Shown piece by piece: positions 23,637-53,055 of a DNA stretch of 64,000 nt. Position 1 is the first letter of the stretch, and every line of letters begins with the position of its first letter. The notes under the pieces are model-generated. The model had not been told where the DNA came from, did no database searches, and saw nothing but the letters and a program-made list of their open reading frames with translations. Position numbers and translations under genes: made by a program. Origin of the DNA: Microthyrium microscopicum (taxonomy: Eukaryota > Ascomycota > Dothideomycetes > Microthyriales > Microthyriaceae); assembly GCA_010405405.1 (NCBI GenBank), contig MU004244.1:561895-625894 (forward strand), written 5' to 3'.

Positions 23637-25775
23637 TCATACCAGACACAATTTTTCGGCGCGAAAAGTCATGTCTTCAATGGTGAGATCACCGGTCGCC
23701 GAGCTTGTCCAAAGTTGCGGATACACGGCACGGTTTAAATACCGCCTTGAGTATGCTAGACCTACTCGTTCGTAGTGTCCTTCTGAGTTGCGTTTCACAA
23801 GAAGACCCACCATCATACCGCCACGGTTTGTCTTCGCACCTCTTGTACCTATATGCAGGAATTTGGTCGTTTTTCTCTCAAGACTGCTTCCAGTCAGTCG
23901 CTCCTCTAATCTCAAGGGCCACGTCAAGCCCAAGTCAATTACTCTAGCTTGAAGATAGATACGAGGAGATCGGTTCTCCAAGCTCGCCAAGTCGATTTCC
24001 AAGTCTTGAATCCAATATATGGAAGAATCAAGGTTTTCAAATCCAATTGGGCCCATCGCACCCGTAAAATACTGTTTTGGCAGGACTTCGTCCGCCGTGC
24101 CTAAGCTTCGAGACCAGCCATGGTCTTCCATTTGTAGTGGCGTATTGCTCTGCCATCCGGCCCATGACCAGCTAGGGAAGCCTTGACGGCGCGTGGCCTC
24201 CCCTTTATAACTCCAAGTCAGTGCCAAACTAATTGCCGTTAGTGTTGTGGTGAGGTGTGGATTGTTGATTTTCAACGGTATTCCCCAAAAATGAAACAAC
24301 CTTGGAGAGGCGACTCTTTGAAAGACTTTAAGTACACCCGAGATGGCATTCAGAGTGTCGCGTTCGAAAGTTAGAGTTCGCTTCGAATATTCATTGATCC
24401 TCAAAAAGAAATCGTCTATGTTACTCGCAAAACTAACAGGTGGATATAATCTCGAGAATGAGATCTCGTCAGGAAACCTTGTAGAGTGGCGAACATGCCA
24501 AAGATCTAAAGGCATTCTGATGGATTCTAGACAGTGCATTCCTAGACATTGCCAGTACACTTGGTGATCGGTAAATATCAGCCGTCTTTTAGACAATAGG
24601 CCTTCTTGATAGGTCCAGCCTCGACTGGCCCATTTAGAGTCCTGAATTGCTCCAACCGGATTTGGCAAGGAAGACACCAAGCTGAAGTTGCCTAATTTGA
24701 CGCGAGGCTGTCGCATTCGAGGTACACTTCCAACGCCTGCCAGACCGCTTGGTGAATCTTTTCCTGTGGCAGCGATGATAGTCAACAAGGATCCCTCATA
24801 TATGCTGTCCATTCTAGAGATCTGATTGTGGGTCTGTGTTTCATTCTCCTGATCTATACAGTATCTATCCACCCAAAGATACTGTTCTCCCAAACTTTTG
24901 ACCACCTGGATGGCATCTTCTATGACTGTAGGACAGTATTGCGGCAGAGTCGGGGAATATTTTGTATCAGCATCCAAGCTGTGGCTATCTTTCCATACGT
25001 AGCTTAATGCCAGGTATTTGACATTCCGAGAAGGTTCGATTACACAACGTGTATGGCAATCGATTAGTTTAAATCCTGACGGGTAAGATTCAGCGATCAG
25101 TTTGCACTGGTATCCATGGTTTTTGTTACAGAAGTGGATCCAATCTTTTATGATGTCCCAATCAATCCGCCTTTCATTCAAGATACGCCCTCGCAGCTTC
25201 TCTGGGTCGCCGGTAGCATTACTATCAGCTTGAAGTATAAAGCCTGGGCTCTGTCGGTCATAGATCGTTTGTTCCCAGCTTAGTTCTTGCTTCAAGTTCA
25301 ACCCGTTTGCGGCGCATTCATATTCATCAATTCTCGTCCCCCTCGGGAAAACACCAAACGAAATGGTCTTTGAGGTAGTTTTAAACCAAGGCATGTGCCA
25401 AATGTGATTTGCTGAAAAGGCTTTCAAGGCGAATTGGACGGTGGCCTGTCCCTGAGACGACCATATTTCTTCCAGTGTATCCGGATCAATACAACGTTTC
25501 TCCTCACGTAGCACCTCAACTTCTTGACTTGGTACTATCATGGCAAAGAAAAATCTACATGCTGGACATATCGATTGTGGACTTGGATTTCCTATGCAGG
25601 CTTCCCATTCGCTGAACTTTATGCTGTCGAAGCTGGCCAGGCCTGTCTCGTTCGAGAATATTGCATTGAGATCAAGACTTGCACAGTCTTCGCAGACCTC
25701 ATCATTAATCGCTCCCGGTTCTTGACTGATTTTGGCTTCCTCTTGAGCTTCAATCTTGTCATGTTCCATTATCAT
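23637..25775 (-). CDS. Heterokaryon incompatibility (HET) domain protein
   Basis: One exon, 712 residues. Residues ~20-90 form a Cys-bearing opening (EVCEDCASLDLNAIF, SICPACRFFF). The HET domain begins with YLALSYVWKDSHSLD and continues through VIEDAIQVVKSLGEQYLWVD, RYCIDQENETQTHNQISRMD and YEGSLLTIIAATGKDSPSGL. The usual follow-on WASRGWTYQEGLLSKRRLIF and VYWQC are present, then a Trp-rich GFPSWSWAGW. HET proteins trigger cell death on fusion of unlike hyphae and are related to TIR-like folds. The frame is complete with the family's usual size, so it looks functional. ATGs at 25775 and 25769 are both possible starts. Confidence 0.92.
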   Translation of the reverse strand: MIMEHDKIEAQEEAKISQEPGAINDEVCEDCASLDLNAIFSNETGLASFDSIKFSEWEACIGNPSPQSICPACRFFFAMIVPSQEVEVLREEKRCIDPDTLEEIWSSQGQATVQFALKAFSANHIWHMPWFKTTSKTISFGVFPRGTRIDEYECAANGLNLKQELSWEQTIYDRQSPGFILQADSNATGDPEKLRGRILNERRIDWDIIKDWIHFCNKNHGYQCKLIAESYPSGFKLIDCHTRCVIEPSRNVKYLALSYVWKDSHSLDADTKYSPTLPQYCPTVIEDAIQVVKSLGEQYLWVDRYCIDQENETQTHNQISRMDSIYEGSLLTIIAATGKDSPSGLAGVGSVPRMRQPRVKLGNFSLVSSLPNPVGAIQDSKWASRGWTYQEGLLSKRRLIFTDHQVYWQCLGMHCLESIRMPLDLWHVRHSTRFPDEISFSRLYPPVSFASNIDDFFLRINEYSKRTLTFERDTLNAISGVLKVFQRVASPRLFHFWGIPLKINNPHLTTTLTAISLALTWSYKGEATRRQGFPSWSWAGWQSNTPLQMEDHGWSRSLGTADEVLPKQYFTGAMGPIGFENLDSSIYWIQDLEIDLASLENRSPRIYLQARVIDLGLTWPLRLEERLTGSSLERKTTKFLHIGTRGAKTNRGGMMVGLLVKRNSEGHYERVGLAYSRRYLNRAVYPQLWTSSATGDLTIEDMTFRAEKLCLV

Positions 25776-26394
25776 TGGTATTCTTTCCGCTGCTTTCTGC
25801 GCAAAAAAGGAGGGTGTCTAGAATCCAATCTTAGTCAATAGGTAGATTCATAGCTACTCCGATGAATCCTTACGTTAATGGCTATCTCTACCGGTTCAGG
25901 AACGATACATCTATGGCCTTGCGGTCGCCTGTACGTGGCATGTATAAGGAAAAGTGAACAAGATCAGAGCTCTATGGCACGCATTAGGCGAGAGGATCGT
26001 AATTCAGATTTACCCAAGAACAATAAAAAGATTGCAAAATATCACGTCTGCAATCGACATGAAACTAGAGACGAGGGTCTTTTTATCGTCCAGTAAGATG
26101 TGCTCAAGCTATACACCGCCACTTCGTCCTGCAAAGCATCAGGCTGAGGCATAGCTCCTTTCACGGAGCACAGGCGAAAAGAAACTCTCCTACAGTGCAC
26201 AGAGAGGTAAAGCTACTGAAGGTTGAATTGAATCAGAGACAATGGAAAACAGATCGTAGAGTTTTTTTTCATAATTGATAGTGAATTATATCCTACTCGT
26301 TTGTAATAATAATATGCAGGACAATCGCCTTCGAACCATTATGCTCGTGGAATGTTTGCATTGGGTTATGGAGCTCGAAGGTAAGTTAGATTGT
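25776..26394. other. Intergenic
   Basis: 619 bp: promoter of the HET gene on the left, 3' end of the hydrolase gene on the right. No gene recognised. Confidence 0.5.
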
Positions 26395-43173: not shown

Positions 43174-44894
43174 CTAGTGATCTGCATGATCGTGGACCCG
43201 ATGAAGACGACATTCCAAGCATACTTGAATATGACATCGGCGACATCGAAGAACCCATTTCTTAGGCCTGCAGTCACAAATTTCGCAAACAAACCTGGGT
43301 CCGTCTACTCGATTGATCCGCTCAAATTTTCCAGGGTGGTTGCATTCGTGCTGGTCAATCAATTCTTGCCTCATTTCGACAACACGGACCTGCTGCTCTT
43401 CAGGCTGTAGAGGATGAACTGCCTCTCTTGCGACCACCTCTTCGGCTCTTGCAAGCAGCTGAGCCTCTTCCCAGACCGGACACTCGCATTTTTTCCATTC
43501 AACAGCGCATCTGTAGCAAAAGTGGTAGTTACACTTGCAACTGAAACCGATAGTTAGAGACAGTTGACATATTTTCAGACAACCACCTACGTGATGTGGT
43601 AACAACCAACGTTCAGCTCCACCATTGTGTTGCACGAAGGACATCGTTGCCATCCAAGCTCTTTGGCCAAGGCTAGTGTCGCGAGAAGTTCTTGATCAGC
43701 TTGACACACTCCATCGTGAGAAGGTTTCTTGCAATGAACACAAGTCTTGGTCTGACAATCACCGCAGCAGGCGAAACCATCCTCCCCAATATGCGCGGGT
43801 GGGACAAACGTTCCGCAACTAGACTTGCTGCAGTATGTTCTGTTCACCGTGGTGAATTCTACTTGCGCATTGTGGAACATTTGCCGCTCATTTGGAGTCA
43901 TCGCAGGGGATATAAATCGCAGCGGGATATCTTGACCGCAGCATTTCGGGTGGAACAGGCTTTCATCCTTAGCTGAGCTAAGGAATAGCTCTTTCAGGCA
44001 GTTTTTGCAGTAGATATGATCGCAAGGGACTATCAGCATGTCTTCAGGAGAGCTTTGCTCCATACACGCAATGCATGGCAGTTGGTATTCAGGTATGTTG
44101 TTATCGTCTTGCTTGTGGCGCTTTTCGCAATTGGTTGACGGATCAAGACCGGACTGTGAAAGATATGGATTAGCGGGTAGAACTGAACAGGATCGGGCTA
44201 GTCGATTACTTCAGACTCATCGACATCGAAGGTAAACAGTCGCTTGGCTACTCGATGCAAGATGAGTTCCTAAACTTCCCCGTTAGCTTGCGTAGGACAT
44301 CAAGGATGTAGCTGGTCAGTAAAAAGGTAAGAGAGGCAGAAGATCACGAAGCTCTGTTGCAATTGCTCCAGCATACTAAATGAGTCTCCCAGCCAACCGC
44401 AAACCGTTTCATGGGGAACTTACGATGTCTTGTTGAGCAGTCTTTCTCTTTCCCAAGTCTCCTTGCTCCTTTGGCTGAGCGTGAACAGGTCCGTCTTCCA
44501 CTTCGGCAGGCAAAATCAAGGGCGCCGGGTTCGCTTCTCCGTTCTGCTCACCCGGAGCGTTGACTACTCGATCAGGCTCCTGAACAGCACGACCTTCTCG
44601 AAAGGGCTCCTGAACAACAATGGCAACACCGCTAACATTGCCGCGTGGATGCTCAGCCCCAGCAAGACCACATGCGTACTGCTTATCATCCAGGACTTGT
44701 ACACGTTGTTGAAGTTCATTCTGAAAGCTTAACAAGGCCAGTAAACTGTCAGACGGTGGTGCTCCTTCTCTTGCTTGGCGCATGCCGTAGCTCACCTGAG
44801 CCCCGACATCTTCCAACTGCAAAGTAAGGGCGACGAGCTCGTCATTGACACCACCATTGGCAGGTAAAGGATTGTCTTGCGGCGGGCGATTCAT
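43174..44894 (-). CDS. RBR-type E3 ubiquitin ligase (left copy)
   Basis: Four exons (44894-44424, 44269-44210, 44153-43591, 43540-43174) give 486 residues. RING1 begins CIACMEQSSPEDMLIVPCDH with IYCKNCLKELF; the IBR has YCSKSSCGTFVPP and CCGDCQTKTCVHCKKPSH; RING2 is RCPSCNTMVELNVGCYH then CKCNYHFCYRC, with the predicted catalytic Cys at 361. A Cys-rich tail (FVCEICDCRPKKWVLRCRRC) follows RING2. RBR enzymes take ubiquitin from an E2 onto that Cys before transfer. The N-terminal ~200 residues have low sequence complexity and a short helix (ELVALTLQLEDVGAQV). Its divergent neighbour is a paralogue. The long first intron (~150 nt) is the least certain part. Confidence 0.9.
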
Positions 44895-45752
44895 CTTTGA
44901 TACAAAATCGAAAGAGAAAAAGAGAAGTGAAGTTACACATGAAGATGGGGATGGGAGCCTAAAGGACGGCTGATCAGTCTGCACGCTTCATGTTTCGTTC
45001 GCTCTTGCCTATCTTGTTGTTGATGTGTCTACTGACTTGATCGCTCCTGCTCCAGGCCTGGGAGCTTTTCGCAGGGTACTGAACCTCTTCTCTACCCAGA
45101 AAATCATAAAGGAGATAGTTTCAACCATATTACGACCTGGATCATACATGGGTGTAGCCAAAGGCAGTCTGAAGTCAGTACGCTGGTGACATTTTTGAGC
45201 AACGATTTACCACAATCTGGCTTGATCACTTCAAACTCTGTAGAAAAACATTGGTAGGGCTTGAAGAGACGTTGAAACTACTATCTTGCGCCTTCATACC
45301 ATGTGCTACTGGTTACGATGGATTTGGTATGTTGAGTGCTCAACGTAGTGTACATACTGTGCTCTTATCATGAGACTTGACAGAGTCAAAGTAAAGGAGA
45401 AGATCAATGGCAATATTGAGACATGCTAGTCGAGGCGTTGGGTACGGTTGAATAGCCAAACGCCATGCTTCAGATATCTCAACGCGTGATACACTTTTTA
45501 GGATATTATCGCAAGTACGCAGTTGAGGAGCATCGAGGGAAAGGAGCTGAGAATTTGAGAAGAGTTGAGCAGTTGAGATTTAAATGTTCACCTCGAAACA
45601 CCGCTAACCTCGTTCAGACTAGCCTCAGCCACCAGTTTTGCTTCTTCCACCAAAATAATCGAGCCCTCCCCGCCCTTGCACCTCAATTCAGCGCTTATTC
45701 GCCAACCTTGCATTTTCAGCCTTTTAGGCTATCGCCACTCTCCTTTCGCAGT
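44895..45752. promoter_or_regulatory. Intergenic region between divergent RBR paralogues
   Basis: 858 bp separate the two start codons. An in-frame extension of the right copy to 45465 adds about 96 residues with no counterpart in the left copy and is probably 5' UTR. Confidence 0.5.
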
Positions 45753-47341
45753 ATGGAAGTCATTACAGCGTTGGATAACGATATTGCAGCGCTTACAGCT
45801 CAGTTGCAAGAGATTCGGGTATTTAATAAGCAGTCAAAGGGCAAGCATGCGCTCAACAACCTACCTGACCACGAAATCGCATCATCTGCTTTCCACTCAG
45901 AAGTCGAACAAACGATTACTTCACTGCTCAACCTAAGAATTGCTCATTATATCGCCAACGACCTCCCTATTCCAGCAGCGATTGAACACGCCAGCATCTT
46001 GGATGACGAGCTGAATGGTATCTCAGCTTTGTCTATAATCGACCAGGAAGACGAAGATGACCCATTAGTTGGCCTGCCCGGCCCATCCACTACCGCCCCA
46101 ACGTCCCATTGTGTAGCCTGTTACTCTCAACTTCCTCTGGGTGATATCATCCGAACACCTTGTGGCGACCATTATTGTGGAGACTGTCTGAAGGAGCTGT
46201 TCTTGCTGGCCACCAAAGACGAAAACTACTTCCCTCCACGTTGCTGCCGACAAAAAGTCCCAATTGAGCTTATCACGCCAGTTCTATCTCCCGAAGAATT
46301 GAAAGCTTTTCAGTCAGCATCCATCGAGTTCACCACCAAGAACCGACTATATTGCAGCAATGTGGGCTGCGGAAAATTCCTTGCTCCACCCACGGCTTCA
46401 GGTCTGGACGTTGTGACGTGCGATAAATGCTTGTCTCAGACATGCATTCAGTGCAAGAAAGCTGAACATACTGGGTAAGGTGCTCACTTGTCATATCTTT
46501 TTGACGACATACAAAGATACCAAAACCTCCAGTGGTTCCGGTCCCATTCGACGGCTCCCATATCTTGTTGTGGAAGTACTTCGAGTTATGGACACTATCT
46601 CCTCAACACTGTGCCAGGATATCATGATTCTAGACTAACAAGGTCTAGTGACTGCCCCGAAGATGAGGCTTTGCAAGCTACACTTGTACTAGCCGCGGAG
46701 ATGAATTGGCAGCGTTGCAACGCTTGCAAATCGATGATTGAACTGGACACTGGCTGCTACCACATGCGGTAAGCTATGCGTTGCAAGTTTCTGTCTTATA
46801 CTAATATACTGGAAAATTAGTTGCAAATGCGGTCATCAATTCTGCTATATCTGCGGCGTTGAGTGGAAGAAGTGTCGCTGTGCGCAGTGGGATGAGAATC
46901 GATTGGTCGCTAGAGCCAACGTGATTGTCAATCGAGAGCCAGCCGGAAGACGACGTATGGCACCAGCAGAGCGGGCTCAACGTATGGGAGTGGTGAGACA
47001 GGAGCTGATCGAACGACATCAATGCACTCATCCGCGACGACTTGAGAAGATTGAGCGCCAACGTCCAGAACACGGTAAGCTTCCCTTTCTTCCAGACCCT
47101 TTTATTGTCCCCTTTCATCCCCAAATTATGTGATGGCTCTTACCGGATTCGATGAATCCCATCTCAATCTCGCTAATGACTTCCAGGTGCCAACTGGCCG
47201 GGCTTCCAATGCGAGATGTGTAACTCTAGACTGTTCTATCACATTCTACGTTGTACTCGATGCCACATTCAGGTCTGTGACCGATGCCGACGCAACCGAA
47301 TTGCTGCACGAGATGATGATGATGATGACGATGTTTGGTAA
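45753..47341 (+). CDS. RBR-type E3 ubiquitin ligase (right copy)
   Basis: Four exons (45753-46474, 46649-46768, 46821-47074, 47187-47341) join to 416 residues. The start MEVITALDNDIAALTAQLQE matches the helix near the N-terminus of the left copy. RING1 starts at Cys120 (CVACYSQLPLGDIIRTPCGD, YCGDCLKELF); IBR: YCSNVGCGKFLAPP and CDKCLSQTCIQCKKAEH; RING2: RCNACKSMIELDTGCYH then CKCGHQFCYIC, predicted catalytic Cys277. The same tail follows (GFQCEMCNSRLFYHILRCTR), and the end is a run of Asp from GAT repeats at 47312-47332. All zinc ligands I can place are present, so it looks active. Substrates are unknown. Confidence 0.92.
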
Positions 47342-49530: not shown

Positions 49531-51009
49531 TTATATAACGTGTAATGGCATCCAACTGTCTATGATCGCCATTTCGGCGGATTCATAGAATCTGCAAGAG
49601 ATTTCGCCGCTCTCTTCGCGTTTACACGAGTTAGCTCCTCCTGTAGAGAGTAGCTTAAATTGTTTATGAATCCTATGTATTGCATTAGCGTAAATTCGTT
49701 TCATGAGTGCCTTGTATAATATGCACTTACCAACCTGCCGAACATCACCATGATTGCCGTTCCAGCCAGATTGATGACCAAGCTTTTTGAGCTCTACAGA
49801 GTTGACGTTGATAGTAAGGTCACAATTATTGACGGTAGACCCAAAGTTATTGGCCTTGAGATCTGGAGTGAATCCATGAAGCTGCAGAACCAGGCTCGTT
49901 TCTTCCGCCGAATCCGAATCAGATGGATGAACCAACCCGGCTCTGAAAAGAGGCCTTTCTTTCGCCTTACTTTGAGACTTTGCATCATGATCCCACGGCC
50001 TGTTTGGCCATTTTGCAGCATAAACAACGTAAAAGTCCTTGGTGAGTGGGCAACACCAACGACTCTCGAGGTTCTTTTTCCCTTCATGTTGGTACACTAC
50101 CCAGAATTGTTGAGCAGCTGGCTCTACTGCGAACATGATCTTCCCCTTCCCGAGCTCTGTGGCAAAATTAATTGATTCTCCTTCTTTGTTGACTCGTAAT
50201 GTGCCATTCCTGATAGAACAATTAGAATATAAGTCTACACGAGAGTTGCACGGCACATACCACTTTGCCTTAATTTTGAACTTCCTCGCGGGCACCGTGG
50301 TCTTTCTTTTCCAATCGACCATGATGGCTTCATCGTCGTGGTGTTTTGAGGCAAGCTTCTTTGAACAGACAGTATGAATCGATCCATATCCTGTGCCTGT
50401 GGACTTATCATCACAGAAAGAGGAGCTGGTTGACATCAGCTGCGTTTCTGATGGTATCTTTGGGCAGTCTGCAGTTCCAAATATTTCAGATGACGATAAG
50501 AAAGTGTGCCGAACATCATCAATAGCTCGGATTTCCGCCTTCAGCTTCTCAGCTGCTTCGTTTGTGCCTCTAAAATCTCAAATCAGTAGACACAGATGAG
50601 TTGGAATAACTCTATCTTACTGGGAAAAGGACACCTGAGACCACGTTAGCATCTGCGCATAGCCTTCCAATCGCATAGTCAAAAAGTATTCCTCTTTTGG
50701 ACGTAAAGGCCACTTCATTCCATTCCGTGGGCGCAGTCTTTGACATAATTCAGACAATGTTTTTTGAAGACTCCCGAGCACCAGATTTGTAGACGACGTC
50801 CAAGTTTCGTTAAATTCAGATTTGTTGAAAGTGTATTGGGCCAGATGGAGAGACGTCAGAATGTCGTTGACATTGCCTAATTGTTGTAGGACCTTCTTCG
50901 GCCCATCTGAGTTATCGAAAGCAAGCCTGACTCTAGCCAGTCTCTTGATGCTAGTGATGATTTTCAGAACGTCTGCTATTAAAGCGAAGGTCAAGCGTAG
51001 TTCTGCCAT
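49531..51009 (-). CDS. Undescribed family member A: NLR-type N-terminus plus novel C-terminal domain
   Basis: Four exons (51009-50621, 50569-50261, 50209-49731, 49640-49531) give 428 residues. The N-terminal ~150 residues (MAELRLTFALIADVLKII, then a helical bundle ending MKWPLRPKEEYFLTMRLEGY) resemble the helical domain found at the N-terminus of fungal NACHT/ankyrin proteins (PigL_N type). No ATPase follows. A linker leads to a beta-rich domain with GKIMFAVEPAAQQFWVVYQ, ESRWCCPL and LHGFTPDLK, shared with the next gene. The last exon is doubtful: with the strong GTAAGT donor it ends SWMPLHVI, but a paralogue-like MNPPKWRS tail stopping at 49560 lies in another frame. An upstream in-frame ATG at 51105 exists; 51009 was chosen because MAEL is typical. 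Function unknown. Confidence 0.65.
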
Positions 51010-51548
51010 AGTGGGTGGTACTGTAGAGTTACGGTGAGCAGGCGATAATGCTATGCACAAGACCAAACCAAATCCCCTTTCATGGTAGACATACTCTGCG
51101 GCCAAATCGCTTGGCGATGACTGTCTTTAGTGGTACTGATAACTGATTTTTCACATGATCGTGATGACTTGGTGCACTACCGGTTGGACATTCCAACAAT
51201 CACTTCTCAAAAACATTGGCATCTCTTGGCTCTGGATTTAAGATCTTTTTATTCATGAGGGCATTAACCGGTATACAAAATAAATGGCGCGCCCCATCGA
51301 CTTCGATGGCTCCCACTCGTTAGGCTCTGGTATCGAGTGCTTTATTGACCATATCGATGAGACGTTTGTACCGGCACAGTTTATCGAATGCAATGGAAAC
51401 CATAGCGCCTTTTGTTTAAAATCGTTCGTGGTAGCGCACGCGAGTTATTTGTCTATCATTTGAACGGTTGGCGTACAGTTTCCTTCATAAAGTGACTGCA
51501 ACACTAAGCAATGATGCTTTGTGCCTCTAGTGGACCAGTATCACTAGG
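51010..51548. other. Intergenic between tandem paralogues
   Basis: 539 bp between the start of copy A and the stop of copy B. No gene recognised. Confidence 0.45.
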
Positions 51549-53055
51549 TTAATCATTGTTGCTACGCCATCTAGGCGGGTTCATACCAGCGGCAACAAGT
51601 ATTCTTCTGCCTTCTTGTTGATCCTCGAGCGTACTGTTGCCGATTAATGCATCACTCAGCCTCTTGACGAAGTCATCATTACGGACATGGCCTGTTTCAG
51701 TGGTCAGTCAAGTAAGCGTGCGATAAACACCAGTAGAAAAGCACTCACTGTTGTGGCGATAACCCTTGTTACGTTTGAGCATATACGCTCGGTAGTATGA
51801 GCTATTAATCTTGATGTTGAGTACAGACCTGTGCTGAGCGAGCTGGGTCACACATGGCCTCATATCCGGAGTAAGTCCAAGAAACCGCACAGTTACCTTG
51901 GGCCAGACACAGGGACTCGGGGCATAGTAGCAGGCCTTGAAAGAAGGACTAGGTTGAGCTCGAGACCAACCTTCTCCAAATCGCAGAAAGCATTTCGAAC
52001 GATATTTTACCTTCAAGCTTGGGCTTAGCAGACATGACCAGCGACTTTCATGCGTTCCTTGTCCATCAGGTTGGAAAATTACCCAGAATAGTGAAGTAAA
52101 GTCTTCTATTGCAAATATGATGGTTCCTGCTCCAAGGTCTATTGAGCCATTGTTTGCGACACTTTCGTCTTGTACTTGCAATCGAGCTCCAGGCCTAGTG
52201 GTTATGGTCAGCTCGTTCAATACCTGAAATGAACTGTAGAAAGAAATTTACCACTTATCAAGGATCTGAAACTCCTTGTTTTTCTCTACATCCTTCTTCA
52301 TCATTGTGAATTGGTCAGTAACAATATTTTCACGATCATCTTCCTCTTCCTGAATTGTGCCACATGATCCCAATGACTGGTTAGTGATGGATGATTGTGT
52401 TAACTTGGATCGCGGCTTGCCTAGCATAGGAGTGTGTCTAATTGCTTCAAGTACAGAATGGGAGCACGAGACTACATTCTCAGTCGCAATAATGACCATA
52501 ATCTCTTCCGTTGCTTCTTCGGATTTCCGGTATGGCTCCGGAATGTCTTTCCTGTTTTTGTCAATTAGCTTGTGATCAAATGACAACCTAGGTATTTAAA
52601 ACGACAAGGACTTACTTCCGTGCGGAGATTTTTCTCAACCCATAAAGCTTCATGAGCAAGCAGTACAACCGCAGGAGCAGATCAATATGATTGTTGGGGT
52701 GATCAGGCCACGTTATTGTCCAGCGAAGATTGAGCTCTTCCTTTGGCATGAATTCTTCTATCGTTGTCTCGTAATCAAAGACAGCTTGTAGTCGTATAAG
52801 TCCGGAAGGTGTGATCAGCCTTTGTAGAATATTTGCTGGGGAAGCAGATATCGTAAACGATGAATCTTCTGCCATAGTATCTGATATAGCCTGAAATATT
52901 TTGAGAGGTGTGATTATTCTGAAAGATCTGCAGATTTCAAGCTTGCCTCTCTTTATGCTCTGGCCAAGTGACTTGGCGGCAGCATCTTTGGTTATGATCG
53001 TGGTGCTGTGGTACGCTATCGTACATGTGATGATCGAATTTATCCCGTTAAGCAT
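51549..53055 (-). CDS. Undescribed family member B: paralogue of the gene to its left
   Basis: Four exons (53055-52616, 52551-52252, 52194-51749, 51691-51549) join to 442 residues. The first exon ends in a region alignable with copy A (LRWTITWPDHPNN, LLLRLYCLLMKLYGL), so it may be a diverged version of the same helical domain. After a Glu/Ser-rich linker the shared domain follows: GTIIFAIEDFTSLFWVIFQ, ESRWSCLL, FLGLTPDMR, LNIKINSSYYRAYMLKR, and the tail VKRLSDALIG then MNPPRWRS. Introns 1, 2 and 3 fall at matching places and phases to copy A; intron 2 splits a Trp codon in both. The frame stays open upstream to about 53150, so a further 5' exon is possible. Function unknown. Confidence 0.65.

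Follow-up and report, generated by a model that had tools for sequence, protein, structure and literature searches.

A locally duplicated three-gene family of Microthyrium microscopicum with a shared promoter block and a possible pleckstrin-homology-like domain

Two adjoining minus-strand genes of the dothideomycete Microthyrium microscopicum (order Microthyriales), here called A and B, form an undescribed family with a third copy, C, on the same contig. A and B lie in a 64,000-nucleotide stretch of contig MU004244.1 (GenBank assembly GCA_010405405.1, positions 561,895 to 625,894), which is referred to below as the window. The three genes share their intron phases, a C-terminal beta-rich domain and a block of promoter sequence. 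The initial annotation had proposed an undescribed family from sequence inspection, and this was borne out: the genes are locally duplicated, and the curated libraries searched gave no credible match. The family most likely consists of lineage-restricted intracellular adaptors, a putative function. Tentatively, we read the C-terminal domain as a diverged module of the pleckstrin-homology (PH) superfold that would serve as a peptide- or protein-binding adaptor, encoded by three genes that may be switched together; this combined reading falls short of probable.

Gene structure, homology and local duplication

Both A and B are entered in the database as hypothetical proteins of M. microscopicum. 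The entry for A (P0001, BT63DRAFT_430081; 428 aa, partial) is identical to the spliced gene over its length, and B read from the annotated ATG at 53055 (exon 1, 53055-52616; 442 aa) agrees with its database protein (Table 1). Both genes splice to intact frames through introns that are all GT-AG. The intron phases, calculated from exon lengths, are 2, 2, 1 in each gene at aligned positions, and intron 2 interrupts one Trp codon in both; splicing thus confirms the shared intron positions and phases of the initial annotation, and every motif that it quoted is present in the translations. BLASTP aligned A with B over 235 aa at 30% identity (E 2e-22), spanning the end of exon 2 together with exons 3 and 4. 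Against a profile of B and C, exons 3-4 of A scored 93.1 bits, compared with 7.3 for the best shuffle (1408 of 2000 shuffles reported), which confirms the common C-terminal domain claimed earlier. Judged by these sequence comparisons, A and B are paralogues. In A, B and C alike, an N-terminal part is followed by a variable linker, the C-terminal beta-rich domain and a tail ending M[NK]PxxWR.

Table 1. Coordinates of the family features in the window
Feature	Position	Strand	Description
Gene A (BT63DRAFT_430081)	49560-51009	-	429 aa; exons 51009-50621, 50569-50261, 50209-49731, 49672-49560
A exon 1	50621-51009	-	N-terminal domain; residues additional to B and C
A exon 3	49731-50209	-	Main portion of shared C-terminal beta-rich domain, from alignment with B and the B/C profile
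A exon 4	49560-49672	-	Tail, end MNPPKWRS
A promoter block GCCAAGCGATTTGGCC	51100-51115	-	91-106 bp upstream of A ATG
Gene B (BT63DRAFT_483985)	51549-52875	-	382 aa; exons 52875-52616, 52551-52252, 52194-51749, 51691-51549
B exon 1	52616-52875	-	N-terminal domain
B exon 3	51749-52194	-	Main portion of shared C-terminal domain
B exon 4	51549-51691	-	Tail, end MNPPRWRSNND
B promoter block GCCAAGTCACTTGGCC	52962-52977	-	87-102 bp upstream of B MAE start (52875)

The host genome (36.9 Mb, 20 contigs) was searched with A, B and later C as queries, and all counts from it are lower bounds. Copy C was found full-length at C15:657403-658751, on the strand and contig of A and B and approximately 43 kb from B, so that the paralogy of the initially described pair stands while its limitation to two members does not. 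In the database, C corresponds to BT63DRAFT_112948 (P0003; 392 aa), whose annotated start is MAE and whose junctions on the genomic DNA imply intron phases 2, 2, 1. An initial model of C with phase 0 at intron 1 was dropped, as P0003 implies another donor and acceptor (phase 2); that model underlies two of the database protein searches, the hmmscan of alignment members, the library search that gave the cytochrome line, the genome search with C, the B-C N-domain identity, the PF17111 shuffle test, the 5-mer comparison, the pairwise shuffles and the divergence estimates given below. B and C are the closest pair (34% over 395 aa, E about 1e-62, with the initial C model), and A is the most distant of the three (26% over 362 aa with C). 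No fourth copy was detected in the host genome with the three queries at E up to 10, and a candidate at C15:626.5 kb (tblastn, 38 aa, E 0.006) looked on inspection like chance. At a cut-off of 1e-3, translated frames from five loci within C15:625.8-674.8 kb, including copy C, aligned to the window only at A and B, the exceptions being two weak lines from outside the family (E 7e-4 and 7e-6). The three genes are read as products of local duplication.

Two observations concern the surrounding DNA. Window positions 51266-51352, upstream of A, resemble C15:652529-652616, about 39 kb away, in opposite orientation (88 columns, 72%), with no open frame there recognisable as a family member. The 601 bases downstream of A have no second copy in the genome.

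The shared promoter block and the start of B

Within the 150 bp preceding the starts, the common block CGCCAAGNNNYTTGGCC is identical at 13 of 17 columns in A, B and C, whereas 10 identical columns were the most seen in 1500 triples taken at random from five local sequences. The pattern GCCAAGNNNYTTGGCC is common to all three promoters, about 100 bp before the MAE-starting ATG, and the B block GCCAAGTCACTTGGCC is an inverted repeat with 7-base arms flanking one base. Across the genome, GCCAAGNNNYTTGGCC has five exact sites and its reversed control none. Three of the five are the A, B and C promoters, a recovery that holds by construction because the pattern was built from them; the other two lie inside open frames (L023 2512-2527 in frame 2000-2854, and L024 2491-2506 in frame 1502-2695). 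The evidence for the block therefore lies in the rarity of GCCAAGNNNYTTGGCC elsewhere and in the random-triple test. The hexamer GCCAAG starts 106, 102 and 114 bp before the ATG of A, B and C, respectively, in frame with the ATG in B and C but not in A, and the block appears conserved as DNA because the reading frame of A differs while the bases stay unchanged.

All three proteins begin with MAE if B starts at 52875 (MAEDSS...). This start is preferred because A and C start with MAE and because that ATG stands 87-102 bp downstream of the promoter block. The annotated start of B at 53055 is thus probably an annotation error, placed 60 codons too early, and the interval 53055-52876 reads the promoter block as protein. 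Given the shared block, A, B and C may be co-regulated, and a dimeric transcription factor acting at the shared inverted repeat would probably control the three genes jointly. As a separate observation, the genome contains 84 copies of GCCAANNNNNTTGGC and 4 of its reversed control. GCCAANNNNNTTGGC may be a wider regulatory site, but no inference is drawn from the 84:4 ratio because the control contains CG steps, which makes it a poor standard of comparison.

The C-terminal domain and the distribution of the family

Profile searches agree with the initial annotation, in which the C-terminal domain went unrecognised. Pfam hmmscan of A, B and the three alignment members returned no family at E up to 10, and Pfam, NCBIfam, PHROGs, PADLOC and PDB sequences gave no credible match to the family. 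The lines obtained were at chance level: archaeal proteins (E 0.4-0.45, another at 1.4), a cytochrome (0.4), RecN (0.098) and a phosphatase (0.19). Structure prediction, which the initial annotation had proposed, yielded low-confidence models, PH-like for B and weak or mixed for C. The B model contains seven strands followed by a helix, with only 9 residues reaching a predicted local distance difference test (pLDDT) score of 70, and its exon 4 tail includes helix H399-431 in this low-confidence model; in the C model, not every strand is resolved. A fold search with the B model returned an almost purely PH-type match list, and the C model gave mixed matches with weak PH-type rows; against viral models, nothing fell below E 0.001. 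On the basis of these models, the C-terminal domain may resemble the PH superfold, a likeness to which the C model lends weak support.

Under the adaptor reading, the C-terminal domain would be a diverged PH-superfold module, RanBD/EVH1-like in shape, with a peptide or a protein as its binding partner, and the N-terminal part would assemble or couple this module. The hydropathy of the family proteins reveals no clear membrane span, and the proteins are probably intracellular. Neither Ran_BP1 (PF00638; RanBP1, RanBP2, RanBP3) nor the EVH1 domains of Homer and Ena or Dcp1 match A, B or C in sequence. The structural rows for Ran_BP1 stand at 7-14% identity, and unlike in Ran_BP1 proteins, the domain here follows an N-terminal part and a long linker. 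With E up to 10 allowed, a Ran_BP1 search of the host genome located four places, two on C5 and one each on C11 and C14, but none on C15.

The same models can be read differently. The PH likeness may be an artefact of weak modeling, the true fold having no relation to PH or having diverged beyond assignment, in which case the genes would be an orphan family of ordinary fast-evolving, lineage-restricted duplicates. The low confidence of both models, the mixed matches for C and the lack of anything credible in the profile libraries are consistent with this account, whereas the almost purely PH-type list for B and the PH-type rows that also appear, weakly, for C argue against it; we regard it as about as likely as the adaptor reading. 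Fungal genomes contain many orphan families of this kind, and for this reason the family is ordinary in kind. Like other species-restricted orphan tandem families of filamentous fungi, it is small and local, has no named domain and yielded no relatives elsewhere; it differs from them mainly in a promoter block and intron phases kept at about 30% protein identity.

Whether the family is lineage-restricted depends on searches of limited sensitivity. Three database protein searches, which are word-based and require shared 5-residue words, recovered only the three M. microscopicum proteins P0001-P0003. With A as the query, neither B nor C was recovered although both are in the database, as A shares no 5-mer with either, and the profile search among the three missed C, which is also present. 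The lack of relatives elsewhere is therefore a limited negative. Such misses would be expected if the family were widespread in other fungi and overlooked by word-based searching; however, the core-focused search of the three, which used conserved words and scored only 18 candidates, found B and C only, and we consider a widespread family rather unlikely. Prokaryotic and viral contigs contained no relative, and none was expected there. As for homologues outside the pair, a point raised by the initial annotation, one more was found in the same genome and none elsewhere. Among the matches listed, literature on the species, the genus, dothideomycete orphan families and the locus tags showed nothing on A, B or C. 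A bolder form of the adaptor reading, in which a PH-superfold family unrecognisable by sequence was invented or remodelled in Microthyriales and forms a three-gene regulon with a dedicated operator whose exact form otherwise occurs only in open frames, is unlikely.

The N-terminal domain, immune receptors and significance

The initial annotation had described differing N-termini in A and B. These parts are not unrelated: B and C are clearly homologous in this region (44% over 81 aa), and A is weakly homologous to them. Exon 1 of A scored 9.2 bits against the B/C exon-1 profile, compared with 8.9 for the best shuffle (hmmsearch, 1738 of 2000 shuffles reported). Pairwise tests of exon 1 were weaker, the A-B score being reached by 134 and the A-C score by 22 of 2000 shuffles; for exon 2, the corresponding counts were 1554 and 31 of 2000, and the match of A exon 2 to the B/C profile was marginal (8 of 1973 reported shuffles). 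Searched against its own genome, exon 1 of A matched itself only. Thus A probably, although not certainly, carries a diverged form of the B/C N-terminal domain with extra residues. This part of B and C was modelled as helical, at a pLDDT of only about 22-44.

The helical N-terminus of A had initially been assigned to the type found in NOD-like receptors (NLRs), which would make the family degenerate NLR-type signalling proteins with a sensor at the C-terminus and a helical domain for effector function or signalling at the N-terminus. The first 60 residues of A resemble fungal NLR N-termini by eye, an impression that profile tests do not support. NLR-type domains are present elsewhere in the host genome, with at least 19 NACHT places, at least six HeLo (PF14479) places and at least ten places of HeLo-like PF17111, six of them over the family cut-off; none of these lies on contig C15, although NB-ARC and other NLR-associated families were not surveyed in the genome. 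No hmmscan match to PF14479 or PF17111 was found in A, B or the three alignment members. A PF17111 profile built from ten stretches of the same genome gave A 2.4 bits, a score beaten by at least 15 of 500 shuffles of its first 150 residues. HeLo and HeLo-like (PF17111) proteins are described as encoded beside NLR genes (PMC9815663); the NACHT search found no NLR gene near A and B on the contig. Although HeLo and HeLo-like effectors roughly match the A N-terminus in length, A, B and C differ from them in having no profile match, no NACHT, HeLo or PF17111 place on the contig and, as the initial annotation had stated for A, no recognisable ATPase domain. Instead, exon 1 of A fits the B/C N-terminal domain. 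Pfam, the PF17111 profile, the NACHT and HeLo surveys, the genome search with A exon 1 and the B/C profile all fail to support the NLR reading, which we consider very improbable; the unsupported link to immune receptors is best abandoned unless structure revives it. Elsewhere in the genome, HeLo stretches cluster at G000 C5:160317-163555 (minus strand), which holds four of the six PF14479 places and probably represents tandem HeLo genes.

The coding sequences carry signs of constraint. Across exon 3, similarity is 51-58% at codon positions 1 and 2 and lower, 30-43%, at position 3. NG86 estimates of nonsynonymous (dN) and synonymous (dS) divergence were 0.74 and 1.55 for A-B and 0.66 and 1.30 for B-C, with A-C saturated. 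By this codon comparison, the proteins are constrained yet far diverged. Functionless, decaying duplicates would account for the high divergence and for a dN of about half of dS, but are hardly credible given that open frames, splice sites, intron phases, conserved motifs and the promoter block are kept in all three copies.

Other genes in the window include a heterokaryon-incompatibility (HET) domain gene at 23640-25817 on the minus strand (PF06985, E 7e-33), about 24 kb from the family. Two similar cysteine-rich RING/IBR-like genes stand head-to-head at 43587-44987 (minus strand) and 45456-46478 (plus strand); the plus-strand gene matches IBR (PF01485, E 6e-8), and the minus-strand gene was assigned by eye.

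On present evidence, the family has no bearing on fungal immune receptors. It would contribute one more family to the many fungal proteins that lack annotation. Most notable in it are the shared promoter block and the possible PH-like domain that sequence does not reveal. With three diverged paralogues and one promoter block, it offers a small, clean test case in which both the binding factor and the ligand of the domain can be sought.
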